Shown here in pieces: positions 35,480 through 43,432 of a stretch of 64,000 nt of DNA (its first letter is position 1; the number at the start of each line of letters is the position of its first letter). The notes under the pieces are model-generated. The model ran no database searches. It saw nothing but the letters and a program-made list of their open reading frames with translations, and was not told the origin of the DNA. The DNA comes from Thermosipho ferrireducens (GTDB lineage: Bacteria; Thermotogota; Thermotogae; Thermotogales; Fervidobacteriaceae), in the NCBI RefSeq assembly GCF_017358165.1, contig NZ_CP071446.1, positions 1,240,001 to 1,304,000 on the forward strand, written 5' to 3'. Made by a program: the position numbers and the translations under genes.

Positions 35480-35543
35480 ACATCTGTAAAAGTCAAGATA
35501 AAAATGCATAAAAAAGGGAAAATAATAATGGACAAAAAAAGTA

Positions 35544-36305
35544 TTATTGCTTAGAAGAATTAGAGAAAAATTCGAGTTTTTCCTTTAATCTATATGATTC
35601 ACCTTTAATTGATATTACGTGGGAATGATGCAGTAGTCTATCCAGGATTGCTTGAGCCAGGACAGGGGATCCAAATATTTCACTCCACTCTGAAAACGGT
35701 GTATTGGTTGTTATTATCGTTGAATGTTTTTCATATCTTTTTGAGATTAACTGGAAGAATATATTTGCACCATCTTTATCTATTGGTAAATATCCTATTT
35801 CATCTATTATTAATACTTTGTATTTTGCGAAGTGTTTTAGTCTTACTTCTAATCTATTTTCTTTTAAAGCCTTTTTCAATTGAGCTATTAATTCTTGAAA
35901 ATGTATAAAATATGTTGAGTATCTATGTTTTGCACATTCAATTCCCAATGAAACAGCAAGATGCGTTTTACCAACTCCTGGTGTACCTACAAATAATATA
36001 TTTTCATTATTTTCCACAAATCTTAAGCTTTTTAAATCTAAGATTTGTTGTTTATTTATTCCAGGTTGAAAATCAAAGTCAAAATCTTCTATTCCTTTCA
36101 AAAAAGGAAAATTAGCAACTTTTACCATTGAAGCAATAGCTCTTTTTCTCTTTGCTTTTAACTCTAATTCACTTAATTCATATAATGCTTCTACTATGCT
36201 TTTTTCTTCATTATTTATAAGGGTTATATATTTATCCAGATTATTTTTCATATTTACCAGATTCAATTCTTCCAGATTGTTTTGTAATTTTATATAAACA
36301 TTCAT
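35544..36305 (-). CDS. istB: IS21-family helper ATPase IstB
   Basis: A 253-residue DnaC-like AAA+ protein required with IstA for transposition. Walker A GTPGVGKTHLAV near 107 and Walker B LIIDEIGYLP near 168, followed by the ITTNTPFSEW sensor block. The ATG overlaps the end of istA (coupled translation). Length normal, no disruption. Confidence 0.95.
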   Translation of the reverse strand: MNVYIKLQNNLEELNLVNMKNNLDKYITLINNEEKSIVEALYELSELELKAKRKRAIASMVKVANFPFLKGIEDFDFDFQPGINKQQILDLKSLRFVENNENILFVGTPGVGKTHLAVSLGIECAKHRYSTYFIHFQELIAQLKKALKENRLEVRLKHFAKYKVLIIDEIGYLPIDKDGANIFFQLISKRYEKHSTIITTNTPFSEWSEIFGSPVLAQAILDRLLHHSHVISIKGESYRLKEKLEFFSNSSKQ

Positions 36306-37516
36306 ACATTTCCCTCCTGCAAGAATTTATCCAGATTTTTTAAATTATTCTCACATACTTCTTTTAATTCTTCGCCGCTTTTTATATGCTTTCTCATTAA
36401 TGCCATATAATGGTTATTAAGATAATTAATTTTTTTACCTGTTATTTCGTGTACTGCTATTAACTCTGTGATATAATACACATAGATGTAGTTCTCATTG
36501 ATTTTTAAATTAACTATTTTTCCTATGTATTCTGGTGGAACGGAGTATTTATTCCCTTTGTAGTATATCAATGAATCTTTTTGGACTTTAACTTTGACAG
36601 AATAATCTACATATGATTCAATGATATGTCTTTTTGGTAGTGGGAATAAATACTCCTTTTCTTTTTGAAACAACAACAGTGGTGGAACATTAGTTGCTTG
36701 ATTTATTCGTGTGTTGACTTTTTTATTTATCCTTCTGATTATATCCTTTAATTCTTCCTCACTTTCAAAAGCGTAATTATATGCTAATAACCAATTTAAA
36801 AATTTATTTGCTGATTCTACTTTCCCTTTGGTATATGAGTGCTTTGGCTTACATAATTTAATTTTAAACCCAAAATCTTTCGCAAAAGCTTTCATCTTGT
36901 TGTTTATTTTTCTACCGTTTTCGGTAATATCTACAACAGATTTCATATTGTCGAATAGTATTTCTTGAGGAACACCACCTGTAGCTTTAAATGCGTTGAT
37001 TAAACATTCAAAAATATCTTGTTGTGTTTTGCTTTGTCTGTATTCAAAGTAACAGTATCTTGAATATCCCAATTTGTAATTAAATACATTTACTACAAAT
37101 TCTTCACCACTTTTTGAATGTAATCTCATATTTTCTTTCCAATCTACTTGAGCTTGAATACCAGGTAAAGTTTCAAACCTCGGGTATCCTTTAGATTTTT
37201 TCTCAGCTCTCAACCCCTTCCTTTTTACATATTTCCTAAAGTTCGAATATGTCCCAATTACATCTCCTTCTTCATCTCTCAATCTTTCATATGCCGCTCT
37301 AATTGTAATTCCTTTAATTGACATTAACATTGCTATCTTTCCAAAATATTTATCCAGCTTACTGGGTTTGTTTCTGGTTTTAGGCTTTCCCTGATAACCT
37401 TCCCAATACTTCTTTACAGTTCTTCTATCTATCCCATATATCCTTGCCAGTTCAGAAAAGTTAGGTTTCAAATTCATCCCCCTTAACATTTGCAAATGTT
37501 GTTTGATTTTCTCCAT
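36302..37516 (-). CDS. istA: IS21-family transposase IstA
   Basis: A 404-residue DDE transposase. N-terminal helix-turn-helix (FSELARIYGIDRRTVKKYW), then catalytic aspartate in QAQVDWKEN, second aspartate in ILFDNMKSVV and glutamate in KGKVESANKFLNW. The ATG at 37516 (MEKIKQHLQML) follows a GGAGGAGGGAT site; reading frames starting at 37561 lie in the terminal repeats. Confidence 0.94.
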   Translation of the reverse strand: MEKIKQHLQMLRGMNLKPNFSELARIYGIDRRTVKKYWEGYQGKPKTRNKPSKLDKYFGKIAMLMSIKGITIRAAYERLRDEEGDVIGTYSNFRKYVKRKGLRAEKKSKGYPRFETLPGIQAQVDWKENMRLHSKSGEEFVVNVFNYKLGYSRYCYFEYRQSKTQQDIFECLINAFKATGGVPQEILFDNMKSVVDITENGRKINNKMKAFAKDFGFKIKLCKPKHSYTKGKVESANKFLNWLLAYNYAFESEEELKDIIRRINKKVNTRINQATNVPPLLLFQKEKEYLFPLPKRHIIESYVDYSVKVKVQKDSLIYYKGNKYSVPPEYIGKIVNLKINENYIYVYYITELIAVHEITGKKINYLNNHYMALMRKHIKSGEELKEVCENNLKNLDKFLQEGNV

Positions 37517-37614
37517 CTTTGGTATCCCTCCTCCCAAAGGAAGGATACCATTTATGTACATTTTTGTGCATTTTTATTTTCCTCTTTTTGTCCATCTGTA
37601 TTTTACCATTTACA

Positions 37615-38198
37615 ACATCTTTTATATCCCATGCAAGATCGTTGAGAGAACTAACGATTCCAGATGGGTGAGGGATGGTTCTGGACAATCTGTACGCTTG
37701 TATGTAATGGTGTACTGTGGCGGACAATTTTCCCGGATTTACATACTTTCGCGCCTGCGCGAGATGTAAAAACGCAAGTGTTGCATCGTCGAGTTCACAC
37801 CTGTTCCCCCACAACCGAACGTTTCTCGCCGGCTCCAACCCACTCGCTTCGATGTTTATTAAAATGTTAACTACACTGTTTCTTGCTCGCTTCGACATTT
37901 TAGGAAGCTCTCTCTTAAGGTATCTATAAAGCTGTGTATCTACATTTCCGACACTTTTCGAAAAAAACAGCTTATTTGCAAGAAGTAGATACCTGACCGT
38001 ATTAGAATTGCACTTTCTCAGACATCTGTCTATTTCACGGAGTGCTTTGTTGAAATCACCTTTCCATACGTATTTGAGCACAAGAGAGAAAGAGCACCAG
38101 ATATTCGAGCTGGGGTTTTCAAGAAAATAATTCACAACTGGAAGAGAAAAGGCTCCATATTTGAAAACAGCTTTCAAACCTTCTGGAATTTTCTTCAT
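37615..38198 (-). pseudogene. 5' part of an unrecognised gene split by the IS21-family element
   Basis: Encodes the N-terminal ~194 residues of the interrupted gene, from ATG 38198 (AGGAGG site) to the junction at DIKDV. Joining it to 35479 across one ACATC copy gives AWDIKD-VHQLWAY with the frame preserved; the total is 1584 nt or 527 residues plus stop. The segment is helical with a repeat-like look (YVWKGDFNKALREIDRCLRK, FLHLAQARKYVNPGKL) that resembles tetratricopeptide helices. It is divergent from the peptide locus, so a regulatory role for that locus is plausible but unproven. Confidence 0.82.
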
Positions 38199-38356: not shown

Positions 38357-38491
38357 ATGAGAAAGACAGTGATGGTGTTTTTTTTTTTGATGTTTTTGCT
38401 TTTAGCAACGTTTGTTTTTGCAGATAAAACAGATGCGGGCGATAGCACGCATGGCCAAACCTCTGTGATTGAGCAGCGTGTTGATGGGTAG
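38357..38491 (+). CDS. 44-residue peptide with signal sequence
   Basis: Starts ATG 38357 shortly after a GGGGGTGAAGGA site. Residues 1-22 are a clear signal peptide (MRKTV, hydrophobic FFFLMFLLLATFVF, then Ala before Asp23). The remaining 22 residues begin DKTDAGDSTHGQTSV, are polar, and lack cysteine. It is the first gene after element copy 1. Eleven T in a row (38378-38388) encode part of the hydrophobic core, a slippage-prone tract. A secreted signal or structural peptide is plausible; I know no family for it. Confidence 0.6.
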   Translation: MRKTVMVFFFLMFLLLATFVFADKTDAGDSTHGQTSVIEQRVDG

Positions 38492-38810
38492 TGTAAAACT
38501 TCCACCGGTGGGAAAGGTGCAAAGAAGGGAAAGAGGTGAAAACTCATTTTATTAAATATGCTGTGGAGTTCGATGGTATTTCAATGCTTCTTGGTTAACG
38601 AAATCAACTTGTTAAAATTGTCAAGTAGTGGTAATGAAAGCAACACGTTTAACAGTCGGAACATGAACATCACCTAAAAGAGTTATACGTGGTATGGAAG
38701 TTTTAGACATATCGGAGATGTGCAAAAATTTGTATGATATAGTGTTCTTGAAACAGCGTTGAATTCCATCTCTCGATATCAAGAGAAACCTTAGAAAAGG
38801 AGGGATTTTT
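38492..38810 (+). other. leader region of the 30-residue precursor, no supported gene
   Basis: No frame in this stretch has both a ribosome site and a convincing product. It contains an extended -10-like TGATATAGT near 38735-38743 and an imperfect 18-bp dyad (TCTCTCGATATCAAGAGA, 38769-38786, 16 of 18 positions symmetric) 25 nt before the precursor start. The precursor may have its own promoter here. Confidence 0.4.
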
Positions 38811-38903
38811 ATGTTAAGAGGATATTATTCAATTTCTAAAAAAAGTGTTTCTTTAAACAAGTGGTGTGAAACAACTATATTTGTTTGTGGTGTATTCTGG
38901 TGA
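38811..38903 (+). CDS. 30-residue RiPP precursor peptide (sactipeptide/ranthipeptide-like)
   Basis: ATG 38811 follows an ideal AAAGGAGG site (38796-38803). The peptide has a basic, leader-like N-half (MLRGYYSISKKSVSLN) and a hydrophobic C-half with two cysteines, C19 and C26 (KWCETTIFVCGVFW), directly before a radical SAM/SPASM enzyme gene with an RRE domain. Length and Cys spacing recall T. maritima TM1316, a 31-residue peptide strongly made in stationary phase and compared with subtilosin A. Thioether cross-linking of the cysteines is expected but inferred. No GG cleavage motif is seen. Confidence 0.75.
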   Translation: MLRGYYSISKKSVSLNKWCETTIFVCGVFW

Positions 38904-38911
38904 TACATAAT

Positions 38912-38945
38912 ACCCTTGGGGAGTTGTTTCCCCAAGGGGTTTATA
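38912..38945 (+). terminator. hairpin between precursor and maturation enzyme
   Basis: A 10-bp stem (CCCTTGGGGA 38913-38922, TCCCCAAGGG 38929-38938, 6-nt loop) followed by GTTTATAATAAT. The weak T tract suggests a leaky terminator or an RNA-stabilising hairpin that lets the precursor be made in excess over the enzyme. Confidence 0.75.
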
Positions 38946-38971: not shown

Positions 38972-41900
38972 ATGTATGAAAATATATTCCCTATCGTTTC
39001 CCCTAATTTAGATATTATCAAAACAAATAAAGGAGCAATATTAAAAATCGATAGAATGCCCAATATTGTATTTGTTTCTCAAACTGAGGCTTTTTTTTAG
39101 CTTTATCTGATGGGATTCACTCTTTGAAAGAGATTGGAGAAATTTTTTCAGAACTTTATTCAATAGAATTTGACTGTTTGATAGATGATTTAAAGTTTTT
39201 AGTAAACAAGTATAAAGAAGCTAATATTTTAAGCATTTTACATGAAAGATTAAGTAGTTCGTTTAAAAAGAATTGCGAAGAGTTTATTTTTATTCCTGAA
39301 AATGATTCAACAAAATTAATACCTATGAAAATCACATCTATTGCTTTTGCAATTACAAATTTTTGTCCACTTAATTGCAATTATTGTTATGGAAATTTCG
39401 GTAAAATTAAGCGAGATTTTCTCCCAGCAGAAGTTGTTAAAGGTGTAATTATAGATGCAGGAAAGTTAGGTAATATAAGGTACGTTTCTATTACTGGTGG
39501 CGAACCATTAATGCACGAGGAATTGCCAGAAATAATAGAATTCTTAGAAGATAGAAATATTTTCTATGAAATATCTACAAAAGGTGTTTTCATAAATGAA
39601 ACCCTAATTAAGAAACTTAAAAAATCGGGACTGAGAGAGATTCAGATTAGCTTAGATTCAATGAATCCTAATACATGGGCCAAAATTACAAGGATGTCGG
39701 TAAGTGAATTCAAAGAAGTTATTGAAACTATGTTATTGCTAAAAAAGTATCATATAAACATAAGAATACGAATTACTCTATCAAAGGATAATTTTGAAGA
39801 TTTAGATTATACTTTAAAAGAGCTTCGCTTTTTCAATCCTGAAACCATTAGAATTTCTTCGCTTATCCCAGTTGGCAGAGGAAGTGTAGAAAACACATTG
39901 GACAAACTTGAAACGTTAGAAGCGTTAAATGTTATTAAAAAGTATGAACAAATATACAATGTGCAAATTGGAATATATCGGTACGTGTCCGATGCATTTT
40001 GCGGCGGTTTAAAAACTTCTCTTTATATAACACCCAATGGTGACGTGTATCCGTGTGATATGTTATATGGGCTTGAAAATGATTCGCTTTTCAAGATAGG
40101 AAACATTTATGAAAATAGTATAAGGGAAATTTGGTTTTCTGAAAAAGCAAATAATTTTAGAACTAATAAAAATATAGTAAAATGTCAATCTTGTGAAGAT
40201 TTTACAATTTGTGGTGGTGGTTGTAGAGCTGTCGCATATAGTTATTTCAAGGATTTTTATGAACCTGTTCCTTATTGTTCTCGAATATATATGGGAACGA
40301 AGGAGAGGTTTTTAGTTGGAAATAACGAAGTAAAAGGGGGAATTGAGATGGAAGAGAACAAAAGTGTAAAACGCTTTTTAAGGACATTTTTTAGAAGATA
40401 TTGGAAACGTCAAGTTGTCACATCAATTCTGGTTATAATCGAGTCCGGTGGAGGAATTCTTATACCCCTTGTGTTTAAGCAAATCATAGATAAAGCCATT
40501 CCGTCAGGCGATTATAAAATATTACTAAATTATATCTTAGGATTAATGGGGTTATTGCTTCTTGCCACAATTTTTAGTTATTTGGGAGAAGTTTGGTTCG
40601 AGTTTACAGCTATTAAGGTAAAAAAAGATTTGCAAAGAGAAATTATAAATAAGTTTATGAGAGTTCCTTTTAAATATTTTATGACAAATAAAGTAGGAGA
40701 ACAGGTTTCAAAGTTAATCTCTGATATAGAACAGGTTGGTATTTTGGCTTCTCAGTTTTTTCCAATAATATTTTTAGCACTTACACAGATTTTCGGAATA
40801 TTAGCAATAATGTTTTTCCTCAACTGGAAACTTGCATTGTTACCTATCACTCTTATGGTAATATCATGGTTCGGAATTATGATTGTAAACGTAAAAGCAG
40901 AGAAACTTAGTCAAAAGGAACGAAAGAAATTTGGAGTTTTATCAGACGTGATATTAAATATTCTAGAAAACATAAAAATACTGAAAATTATACATCCATT
41001 AAATTGGATAAATAAACATTTTGAGAAATTTCAAGAGGATTATATTCAAACTAAGAAAACTTTTACAAGGGTAATAAAACTTGCAGCGGTTTTGGGAAAT
41101 ACGATATTCGGAATAATTGCATTAGCACTTTTTTGGTATGGTGGGTATCAAATTTTAAATGGGAAGATGACTTTAGGTGTATTGATAGCATTCTGGGCGT
41201 ATATGCAAGCACTGGCAAACCCTATACAACTTTTAATGCAAGCAAATGTTACTTATAGAAGTTCGTATGGAAGTATATCAAGGATTAAGGAAATACTCGA
41301 ATATGAGGAGGAAAAAACGGAAAAAGAGGAAATTGCGGATATGAAAATAAGGAAATTAGAATTAAAAAATATTAAGTTTAAATATAAAGAAAAAGAAATA
41401 TTGAAAGGGATAAATATGAAACTAGAAGAAGGAAAAAGCTATGCTCTTGTGGGAAAGAGCGGAGTAGGGAAAACCACTACTTTAAATATATTAACAGGTT
41501 TATATAGATCAAGTAGCGGGAACATAATTGTTAATGATAAGGATTGGACTGAGAAGTTAACAATTCTTAGAAAAAAGATAGGTTTTGTGGAGCAGTCTCC
41601 AGTGTTTTTCAAGTATTGTACTATAAAGGAAAATATACTAATGGGAAGAGATATTCCAGATGAGGAATTTGAAAAAATTATCAATGAAACAGGTGTAAGT
41701 AGATTTGTGGAGAACTTTCCTCAAAAGATTGATACACTTCTCGGGGAAGTTAATATCTCAGGTGGACAAAAACAACTTCTTGCACTTGCAAGGGCATTAG
41801 TAGGGACTCCGGATGTATTAGTGCTCGATGAATTTACTGCAAACGTCGATTCAAAAACAGAGGAAGAAATTCATAAAATACTTCACAATGAAAGAGAAAA

Positions 41901-42066
41901 AGGAAAAATAATCTTGTTTGTTGCACATAGACTCTCAACAATACAAAATAGTGACAAGGTGTTTTTACTTGATGATGGAAAAATAGAAGCAGAAGGTCCG
42001 CATGGCGAATTGATAAATGCTTCTGAAAAATATAGGAAATTAATTTCTTTGCAGATGATAAGTTAA
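38972..42066 (+). pseudogene. RRE-radical SAM-SPASM peptide maturase fused to ABC exporter; frameshifted in a T8 tract
   Basis: From ATG 38972 (GGAAGGAGGAG site) the frame reads MYENIFPIVSPNLDII to a stop just after eight T (39091-39098). One more T would continue it as EAFFLALSDGIHSLKEIGE, completing a PqqD-like recognition domain. Then come the radical SAM motif CPLNCNYC (from 39364), a SPASM Cys set (40003-40280, including CQSC and CGGGC), and in the same frame a six-helix ABC exporter with Walker A GKSGVGKTT, signature ISGGQKQ and Walker B VLVLDEF. It has no C39 peptidase. AAAAGGGGG and ATG 40348 could start the exporter separately. Apart from the T tract both enzymes look intact. Confidence 0.8.
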
Positions 42067-42249: not shown

Positions 42250-42420
42250 GTGCAGAGCAGAGTTTTTCAGGGAGTATTGGGAGGCCTTGTTGGAATAGCA
42301 ACGTATAAAATTACAACGTCTCCATTAGCTGCTCTTGCAATCGGTTTTGGAGTGGGATTTACCAGTTATGATATTAACAATTTTATTCTTAAAGTTGTAG
42401 ATTATGCTCATGAGAAGTGA
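42250..42420 (+). pseudogene. truncated membrane peptide, paralogue A
   Basis: A 56-codon frame from GTG 42250 (ribosome site weak) with a glycine-rich hydrophobic middle (GVLGGLVGIATYKITTSPLA) and a C-terminus GFTSYDINNFILKVVDYAHEK. The last part matches the frame-corrected end of the gene at 43100 (LENFMMKAVDYARGR). It lacks the N-terminal part present there and abuts the ABC fragment, so its 5' end was probably lost in the same deletion. It may still be translated. Confidence 0.5.
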
Positions 42421-42883
42421 AAAAGTGCAAAAATTTTTAAAAGTTTTATTAAAACCATCCGATATGTTTTACGAAACGTTCATTGATGTAAAAAATGGAG
42501 TCTGGACTTATGTGTTGATGACTATCTTCGATACCATCTACCTTTACAAAGTTGCGGATATGATAGTTCCGCTTTATTATGATAAGCCATCATTGTCATT
42601 CACAGCTAAGTTTGTAATTCTATTAATAGTACTTTACATGGTTATTCCATTTGAAATGCACAAAAAGGATTTCAGGGACAAAGAAAAAGGACTGACAGGT
42701 TCGTTGTTTTTTCTGTCACTGTACTTTGAAGTTGGGAATTTTATGAACATTCACATTTTTCTCATAGGTGGAAGAGGAGATATTGTGTACAGGATCGTGG
42801 GGTACGCAGTGTATATGGGTATAGTGATAGTGATAAATCCATTGAATAAGAGAAAGATGTTTTTTAGATTTAAAAGGAATTAA
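42410..42883 (+). CDS. small multi-pass membrane protein of the peptide locus
   Basis: About 157 residues with four or five hydrophobic segments (for example FVILLIVLYMVIPFEM and GYAVYMGIVIVINPL) and a basic end (KRKMFFRFKRN). It overlaps the end of paralogue A and has no ribosome site of its own, suggesting translational coupling. Start at ATG 42410 or 42404. I recognise no family. By position between peptide-like genes, immunity or export help are possibilities, without direct evidence. Confidence 0.6.
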   Translation: MRSEKVQKFLKVLLKPSDMFYETFIDVKNGVWTYVLMTIFDTIYLYKVADMIVPLYYDKPSLSFTAKFVILLIVLYMVIPFEMHKKDFRDKEKGLTGSLFFLSLYFEVGNFMNIHIFLIGGRGDIVYRIVGYAVYMGIVIVINPLNKRKMFFRFKRN

Positions 42884-43099: not shown

Positions 43100-43432
43100 A
43101 TGGATAAAGCGTATGCGCTAACAGCAAACGATGGAACTGGAAGGGTACACGATGGATATTACAACAAAGGAATTGCAAGAAAAATAGATGAGATTAATAC
43201 AAAATCCTGGCAGGCTGATAGGAAAGTGGTTTCCTCAAAGTACTCGAATTGGATAAGAGCAGGAATATTGGGAGCTTTAACATGGACGGTTAGTGGAGGA
43301 CCGATAGCAGGCTTTTTGTTGGAGCAGGTAGTGCAATGCTTGACGATTGTTTAGAGAATTTTATGATGAAGGCGGTGGATTATGCGCGTGGGAGATAGTG
43401 CATTTCTCAAACCCGGAGTTTGGTTTGTTGAG
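43100..43432 (+). pseudogene. membrane peptide, paralogue B, frameshifted
   Basis: ATG 43100 follows GGTGAGG. The frame encodes a polar N-terminus (MDKAYALTANDGTGRVHDGY) and a glycine-rich hydrophobic part (AGILGALTWTVSGGPIAGF), then stops at 43354. Adding one T to the T5 tract at 43313-43317 continues it as VGAGSAMLDDCLENFMMK and VDYARGR, which matches paralogue A. The double-glycine/alanine hydrophobic core resembles class II bacteriocins or holin-like peptides, but no family is certain. Coordinates include the corrected end near 43399; the tail to 43432 is the start of the next remnant. Confidence 0.5.

Follow-up and report, generated by a model that had tools for sequence, protein, structure and literature searches.

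A conserved 30-residue peptide of Thermosipho ferrireducens is probably a radical SAM RiPP precursor of a small Thermotogota family

The window analyzed here is a 64,000-nucleotide stretch of the Thermosipho ferrireducens genome (contig NZ_CP071446.1, positions 1,240,001 to 1,304,000). It harbors a 30-codon gene whose product is very probably the precursor of a radical SAM RiPP, with a leader that would be bound by an RRE, a core cross-linked by a SPASM enzyme and a product exported by an ABC protein. This assignment draws on the existence of a peptide family, the gene order, conserved residues, purifying selection and the domains of the enzyme. Judged by sequence comparison, it is the type of a small family in heat-loving Thermotogota for which no model existed. 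The features of the locus are collected in Table 1.

Table 1. Features of the peptide locus and its surroundings in the window
Feature	Positions	Strand	Evidence
TPR-like protein, C-terminal part, about 330 aa	34480..35489	-	homology
IS21-family element splitting the TPR gene; ends TGTAAA.., 54-nt inverted ends, 5-bp target duplication ACATC	35485..37614	-	sequence
IS21 genes istA (36302-37561) and istB (35544-36305)	within 35485..37614	-	
TPR-like protein (same one), N-terminal part, about 195 aa; divergent from peptide operon	37615..38198	-	homology
MRKTVMVFFFLMFLLLATFVFADKTDAGDSTHGQTSVIEQRVDG, a short ORF with a signal peptide; has homologues among the short ORFs beside TPR genes in other Thermotogota	38357..38491	+	homology, other genera
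Shine-Dalgarno sequence AGGAGGG, 6-nt spacer to ATG	38798..38804	+	sequence
Predicted RiPP precursor peptide, 30 aa, MLRGYYSISKKSVSLNKWCETTIFVCGVFW; family core C-x6-C-G-x2-W-stop	38811..38903	+	translation, homologues, alignment
Stem-loop, 11 pairs, then weak T-rich tail; directly 3' of precursor stop	38913..38938	+	folding z -3.2
RRE-radical SAM-SPASM maturase gene, frame broken; -1 frame runs on to ABC gene	38972..40347	+	domains, alignment with relatives
T8 run where the maturase frame breaks, within the RRE; GC[T TTT TTT] TAG, shape of a -1 slippery heptamer	39091..39098	+	sequence
ABC exporter, MsbA-like (TMD+NBD), same open frame as maturase	40348..42066	+	domain search

The precursor gene and its homologues

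Open reading frames of 25-40 amino acids occur by the dozen in the window and one of 30 codons is ordinary by itself; therefore comparison with relatives decides whether the gene is real. A tblastn search with the 30-mer returned homologous peptides of 37-47% identity (E 2e-6 to 1e-3) at six loci, directly ahead of orthologous radical SAM genes. These homologues are 31-32 residues long and precede an orthologous RRE-radical SAM-SPASM enzyme and an ABC exporter in six other Thermotogota genomes, which fall in two other families of the phylum. Searches with both the 30-mer and the enzyme gave two precursors per locus in G087, G050, G074 and G078 and one each in G091 and G102. A pattern search added a seventh genome (G092), where the peptide sits at a contig end. 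A distant eighth (G073, locus L044) combines a related enzyme of 27% identity with a short peptide ending in CHTAIVIW.

The C-terminal pattern is specific. Shuffling the window 100 times never produced it at the DNA level. For the last 12 residues and the stop codon, a degenerate DNA pattern gave 12 matches in 103 genomes of the phylum, all of them family peptides, while the reversed control pattern gave none in the same genomes. Among 84,980 species, a collection from which near relatives of the window genome are possibly absent, the exact C-terminal pattern matched one Petrotoga MAG (the G102 record) and two others. The latter, in Flavobacterium and Sideroxydans, offer no suitable short in-frame start and were judged to be chance matches; nothing else was found outside the phylum. 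With the looser pattern C-x2-[AT]-I-x-x-W-stop, the L044 peptide was the one placed beside a family enzyme among the matches examined. Within the organism's own family the cassette was present in 1 of the 20 genomes searched, the window genome itself.

Orthologous precursor pairs differ mostly at synonymous positions (pS 0.74 against pN 0.07 for one pair, 0.35 against 0.03 for another), and the peptides evidently evolve under purifying selection. Because of the homologues, the specific C-terminal pattern and the mostly synonymous differences, we consider positions 38811-38903 to be a real, conserved gene. A chance reading frame, which the abundance of short ORFs in the window might suggest, is refuted by the homologues, the synteny, the pattern specificity and the codon evidence, and we give it practically no credence. 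The first-pass annotation, made from the letters of the window, had proposed a genuine 30-residue RiPP-type precursor on the grounds of its composition and a good ribosome site. Homologues, synteny and codon evidence bear out the precursor, and the AGGAGGG six nucleotides ahead of the ATG the ribosome site. The hairpin that follows the stop codon is probably an attenuator or processing element through which more precursor than enzyme would be made.

Neither Pfam nor NCBIfam holds a model that covers the precursor, and an Rfam search of the window gave no match. Model NF033413, which describes the TM1316 peptide, matched neither the window peptide nor its relatives, whereas it does match the peptide of locus L089. 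A search of genome and viral contig collections with the back-translated peptide and enzyme found no relative, probably because exact 8-mers are species-specific. A plasmid search returned no relative of the maturase, and the phage matches to the enzyme were generic radical SAM proteins only, of 24-28% identity.

The maturase

The predicted RRE-bearing SPASM enzyme downstream was confirmed by domain searches, in which radical SAM and SPASM domains were found in the window enzyme and the RRE was recognised in intact relatives. Orthologues at six Thermotogota loci share 39-47% identity with it. The family keeps a CX3CX2C motif and a canonical seven-cysteine SPASM motif, CX2CX5CX3CX17C; cysteines 293, 311, 354, 357, 363, 367 and 385 (window ORF numbering) are invariant. 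The RRE, of the PqqD fold (PF05402), exceeds the Pfam cut-off in L038 and L039 and falls just below it in L042; the break in frame divides the window copy of this domain.

The best curated models for the enzyme were AhbD, WgkB, NirJ2, TIGR04053 and PqqE, all far under their cut-offs (WgkB 115.9 of 650 bits). The sacti- and ranthipeptide maturase models StsB (79.8 of 625 bits) and PapB (80.6 of 340 bits) were not reached either. When the family profile was compared with solved structures, PqqE (6c8v) came clearly first at 1.8e-30, ahead of SkfB (1.7e-19) and the radical SAM protein 5wgg (2.2e-18), which we take to be CteB. By these comparisons the enzymes form a separate branch of peptide-modifying SPASM proteins, and similarity leaves the choice between thioether and carbon-carbon bonds unsettled. 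Since the enzyme is closest to PqqE/WgkB-like proteins and not to known sacti- or ranthisynthases, thioethers are plausible only, and modification of the terminal Trp is a possibility.

Conserved residues and the type of cross-link

The alignment was taken as 11 family members, including the G092 peptide, and has the consensus MLKGYYxIxK...CxFCQxAIVVCGVxW. Met1, Tyr6, Cys19, Ile23 and Trp30 are invariant. Leu2, Gly4, Ala22 (Thr in the window), Val24 (Phe in the window) and Cys26 are nearly so. In the window peptide, MLRGYYSISKKSVSLNKWCETTIFVCGVFW, the cysteines are residues 19 and 26, and Lys17 and Trp18 are adjacent. Most members carry a third cysteine three residues ahead of Cys19 (C-x-F-C), which is missing from the window, G102 and L044 peptides. 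The conserved N-terminal GYY is likely to be a leader motif bound by the RRE. The divergent L044 precursor (L044:3810-3917, MEDLKEEIKEFYEFFDYSWMKNIEEPWCHTAIVIW) has no second core cysteine; it keeps a Cys, the Ile and the terminal Trp (EPWCHTAIVIW).

The first-pass annotation had named the two core cysteines as the likely link residues, kept a streptide-type Lys-Trp bridge as an option and left the choice to conservation among relatives. The cysteines are conserved, Cys19 in 11/11 members and Cys26 in all except L044 (10/11), so that relatives devoid of both the cysteines and the Lys-Trp pair are not what the alignment contains. Lys17 is unique to the window peptide, Trp18 occurs there and in L044 (2/11), and 9 of the 11 members have neither. 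Therefore a carbon-carbon bond joining Lys17 to Trp18, or two residues close to them, is very unlikely and was rejected, although WgkB, which makes a Trp-Lys link, is among the best-scoring curated models. The choice between sacti- and ranthipeptide chemistry that had also been offered finds no backing in enzyme similarity, as the best profiles are PqqE, AhbD and WgkB and none reaches its family cut-off.

Thioethers formed from Cys19 and Cys26 are the most likely cross-links and somewhat probable. Against them stands the fact that the enzyme resembles PqqE/AhbD/WgkB-like SPASM proteins more than any known thioether synthase. A carbon-carbon or Cys-Trp bond using the invariant C-terminal Trp is less likely, as is the related proposal that a carbon-carbon or Cys-to-aromatic link centered on Trp30, with Cys19 or Ile23, is the main modification and cysteines besides Cys19 are dispensable. 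Trp30 and Cys19 persist even in L044, which lacks Cys26, and the best solved relative by profile, PqqE, is a carbon-carbon linker. However, L044 is a single divergent case, Cys26 is kept by all other members, and the conservation of the Trp could reflect recognition or membrane insertion.

The exporter and downstream reading frames

The ABC gene has an ortholog beside the enzyme in relatives (42-46% identity). No match to a C39 peptidase domain was found in the exporter. Further downstream, two short ORFs with hydrophobic Gly/Ala-rich stretches (42250-42420 and 43100-43354) flank a probable membrane protein of 159 aa (42404-42883). These could be unmodified bacteriocin-like peptides with their immunity protein; none of the three has relatives in the loci fetched from other genomes. 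In G007 (L100:5574-9037) a TPR gene, 63-69% identical to that of the window, and an ABC gene that shares 45% identity with the cassette exporter are immediate divergent neighbours. Precursor and maturase are both missing there, so that the locus may be an eroded or immunity-only cassette.

State of the cassette in the window genome

The maturase frame that starts at ATG 38972 stops at a TAG (39098-39100) at the end of the T8 run. Past this run the -1 frame reads FFLALSDG, matching QTEAFFLSLCDG of the relatives. A second departure occurs near the 3' end, where the enzyme frame leaves that of the relatives at a short T run and continues into the ABC gene. Sequencing errors concentrate at T runs, and since both breaks lie at such runs a local error may apply. 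A poor assembly is not the favored cause of the breaks: among other genes in 464 kb of the window genome that could be set against a relative, 0 of 68 showed a frame change, which makes sequencing error less likely.

Given the broken enzyme frame and the IS21 insertion in the likely regulator, impairment of the system in the window genome is probable, and the simplest reading is that this lineage has a cassette in decay or turned off. Its strongest form, in which the cassette is a set of pseudogenes and the peptide is no longer modified, has in our estimate a little less than an even chance and is compatible with the RiPP assignment for the family. The break within the RRE and its counterpart near the 3' end, the clean 5-bp duplication around the insertion in the TPR gene, the undisturbed frames of the 68 compared genes and the loss of the first Cys of CxFC from the window peptide all speak for decay. 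Against it, the precursor, its ribosome binding site, the radical SAM and SPASM motifs and the ABC gene are all intact, and both breaks lie where sequencing is error-prone. Moreover, as the T8 run reads GC[T TTT TTT] directly before the TAG, -1 frameshifting or transcript slippage could yield exactly the sequence of the relatives; it is a possibility that some enzyme is supplied in this way.

A TPR-like protein and a divergent short peptide

The gene interrupted by the IS21 element is one of a family encoding TPR-like proteins of roughly 530 aa. This family is present in 54 of the 103 genomes of the phylum, and a single genome can hold as many as 18 matches. One member passes the Pfam cut-off for TPR_12 and the others match weakly; the family profile gave nothing significant against solved structures. 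The short signal-peptide ORF on the opposite strand is a candidate exported signalling peptide. It contains a T11 run (38378-38388), one of only two T runs of at least 11 in 464 kb of the window genome, which could make the ORF phase-variable.

Such pairs recur. Divergent signal-peptide ORFs of 35-68 aa accompany 13/27 TPR genes as against 0/186 other genes (p 1e-13, with neighbouring loci not independent). A radical SAM enzyme akin to the window family is present in 9/20 TPR regions and in 0/40 control regions (p 1e-5, with the same dependence between neighbouring loci). The pair is multi-copy across Thermotogota (L059-L108) and stands beside many radical SAM peptide loci, that of TM1316 included. 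Short Cys-rich ORFs often lie between the short signal-peptide gene and the enzyme in these regions. In G053 (L106:2383-3257) several occur in a row, with CNPDGDC-type motifs, between the TPR gene and a radical SAM gene.

We tentatively propose that a multi-copy Thermotogota signalling system, composed of a TPR-like receptor and a divergent exported short peptide, may switch on radical SAM RiPP cassettes, with the window peptide as one cargo. Taken together with this switching role, and with the same reserve, the pair might constitute a circuit like Rgg/SHP-RaS-RiPP within a phylum of diderm thermophiles, distinct from the known RRNPP families of Bacillota. Peptide signalling of this kind in Thermotogota was not found in the literature searched. 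The first-pass annotation had passed over the flanking pair, the IS21 lesion, the invariant C-terminal Trp and the Thermotogota-wide family.

Comparison with known systems

The closest parallel in the same phylum is the TM1316 locus (TM1315-TM1319) of Thermotoga maritima, where a 31-aa Cys peptide (NF033413) precedes a radical SAM enzyme and ABC genes. At L089 the same TPR-like gene and a short signal-peptide ORF are likewise divergent from the operon. The TM1316 precursor (L089:7355-7450) has the core CGGAGLVCG and the window family CQSAIVVCG, with C-x2-A-x-[LV]-V-C-G in common, although the enzymes are of different branches. The TM1316 peptide belongs to another precursor family. For its enzyme the top-scoring models are those of PapB/SCIFF-type maturases (135 and 120 bits), whereas that of the window family fits PqqE/WgkB-like models best.

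PqqE/PqqD resembles the window system in the best profile match among solved enzymes, a PqqD-like RRE and a SPASM domain. In contrast, the RRE of the window family is fused to the enzyme, the substrate has no conserved Glu-Tyr pair and the score is far under the PqqE cut-off. No other PQQ genes were seen near the window locus. Sactipeptides and ranthipeptides (subtilosin, thuricin CD, SCIFF, PapA) share a small precursor with spaced cysteines, an RRE-SPASM enzyme and an ABC exporter, and the two-precursor arrangement of some relatives recalls thuricin CD. The StsB, PapB and SkfB models nevertheless match weakly and below cut-off, and a thioether in the window family is putative.

A similar layout is seen in the Rgg/SHP-controlled RaS-RiPP loci of streptococci (streptide, tryglysin/WGK, streptosactin), where a short exported-peptide gene is divergent from a regulator, with a small precursor and a radical SAM/SPASM enzyme close by. 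In groups I and II of these loci, rgg and the SHP gene point away from each other (PMC13361665). The window system differs in its phylum and in its TPR-like protein, which has no recognised HTH. The core CxFCxxAIVVCGVxW matches none of the named streptococcal motifs, and the Lys-Trp pair is not conserved.

Proposed mechanism and implications

The RRE of the maturase would bind the N-terminal half of the peptide, with its MLKGYY-type leader, and the SPASM radical SAM enzyme would then use the conserved cysteines to cross-link the C-terminal half at one or more places. The MsbA-like ABC protein would export the product, which may act at the cell surface or against neighbours. The frame breaks and the IS21 insertion suggest that the locus may not work in the window strain, unless frameshifting or slippage at the T8 run supplies some enzyme. 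The earlier interpretation is partly supported: it was right on the class of radical SAM RiPP precursor and left the bond open, but it should not have retained a Lys-Trp link as an alternative.

The locus represents a precursor and enzyme family for which Pfam and NCBIfam have no model, with a clear conserved core. The enzyme branch is nearer to carbon-carbon linkers than to thioether synthases, yet the substrate cysteines are conserved, so that the bond type becomes a testable question. The chemistry would be directly readable by co-expression and mass spectrometry. The recurrence of the TPR/short-exported-peptide pair beside these and other radical SAM loci suggests how Thermotogota may control such peptides.
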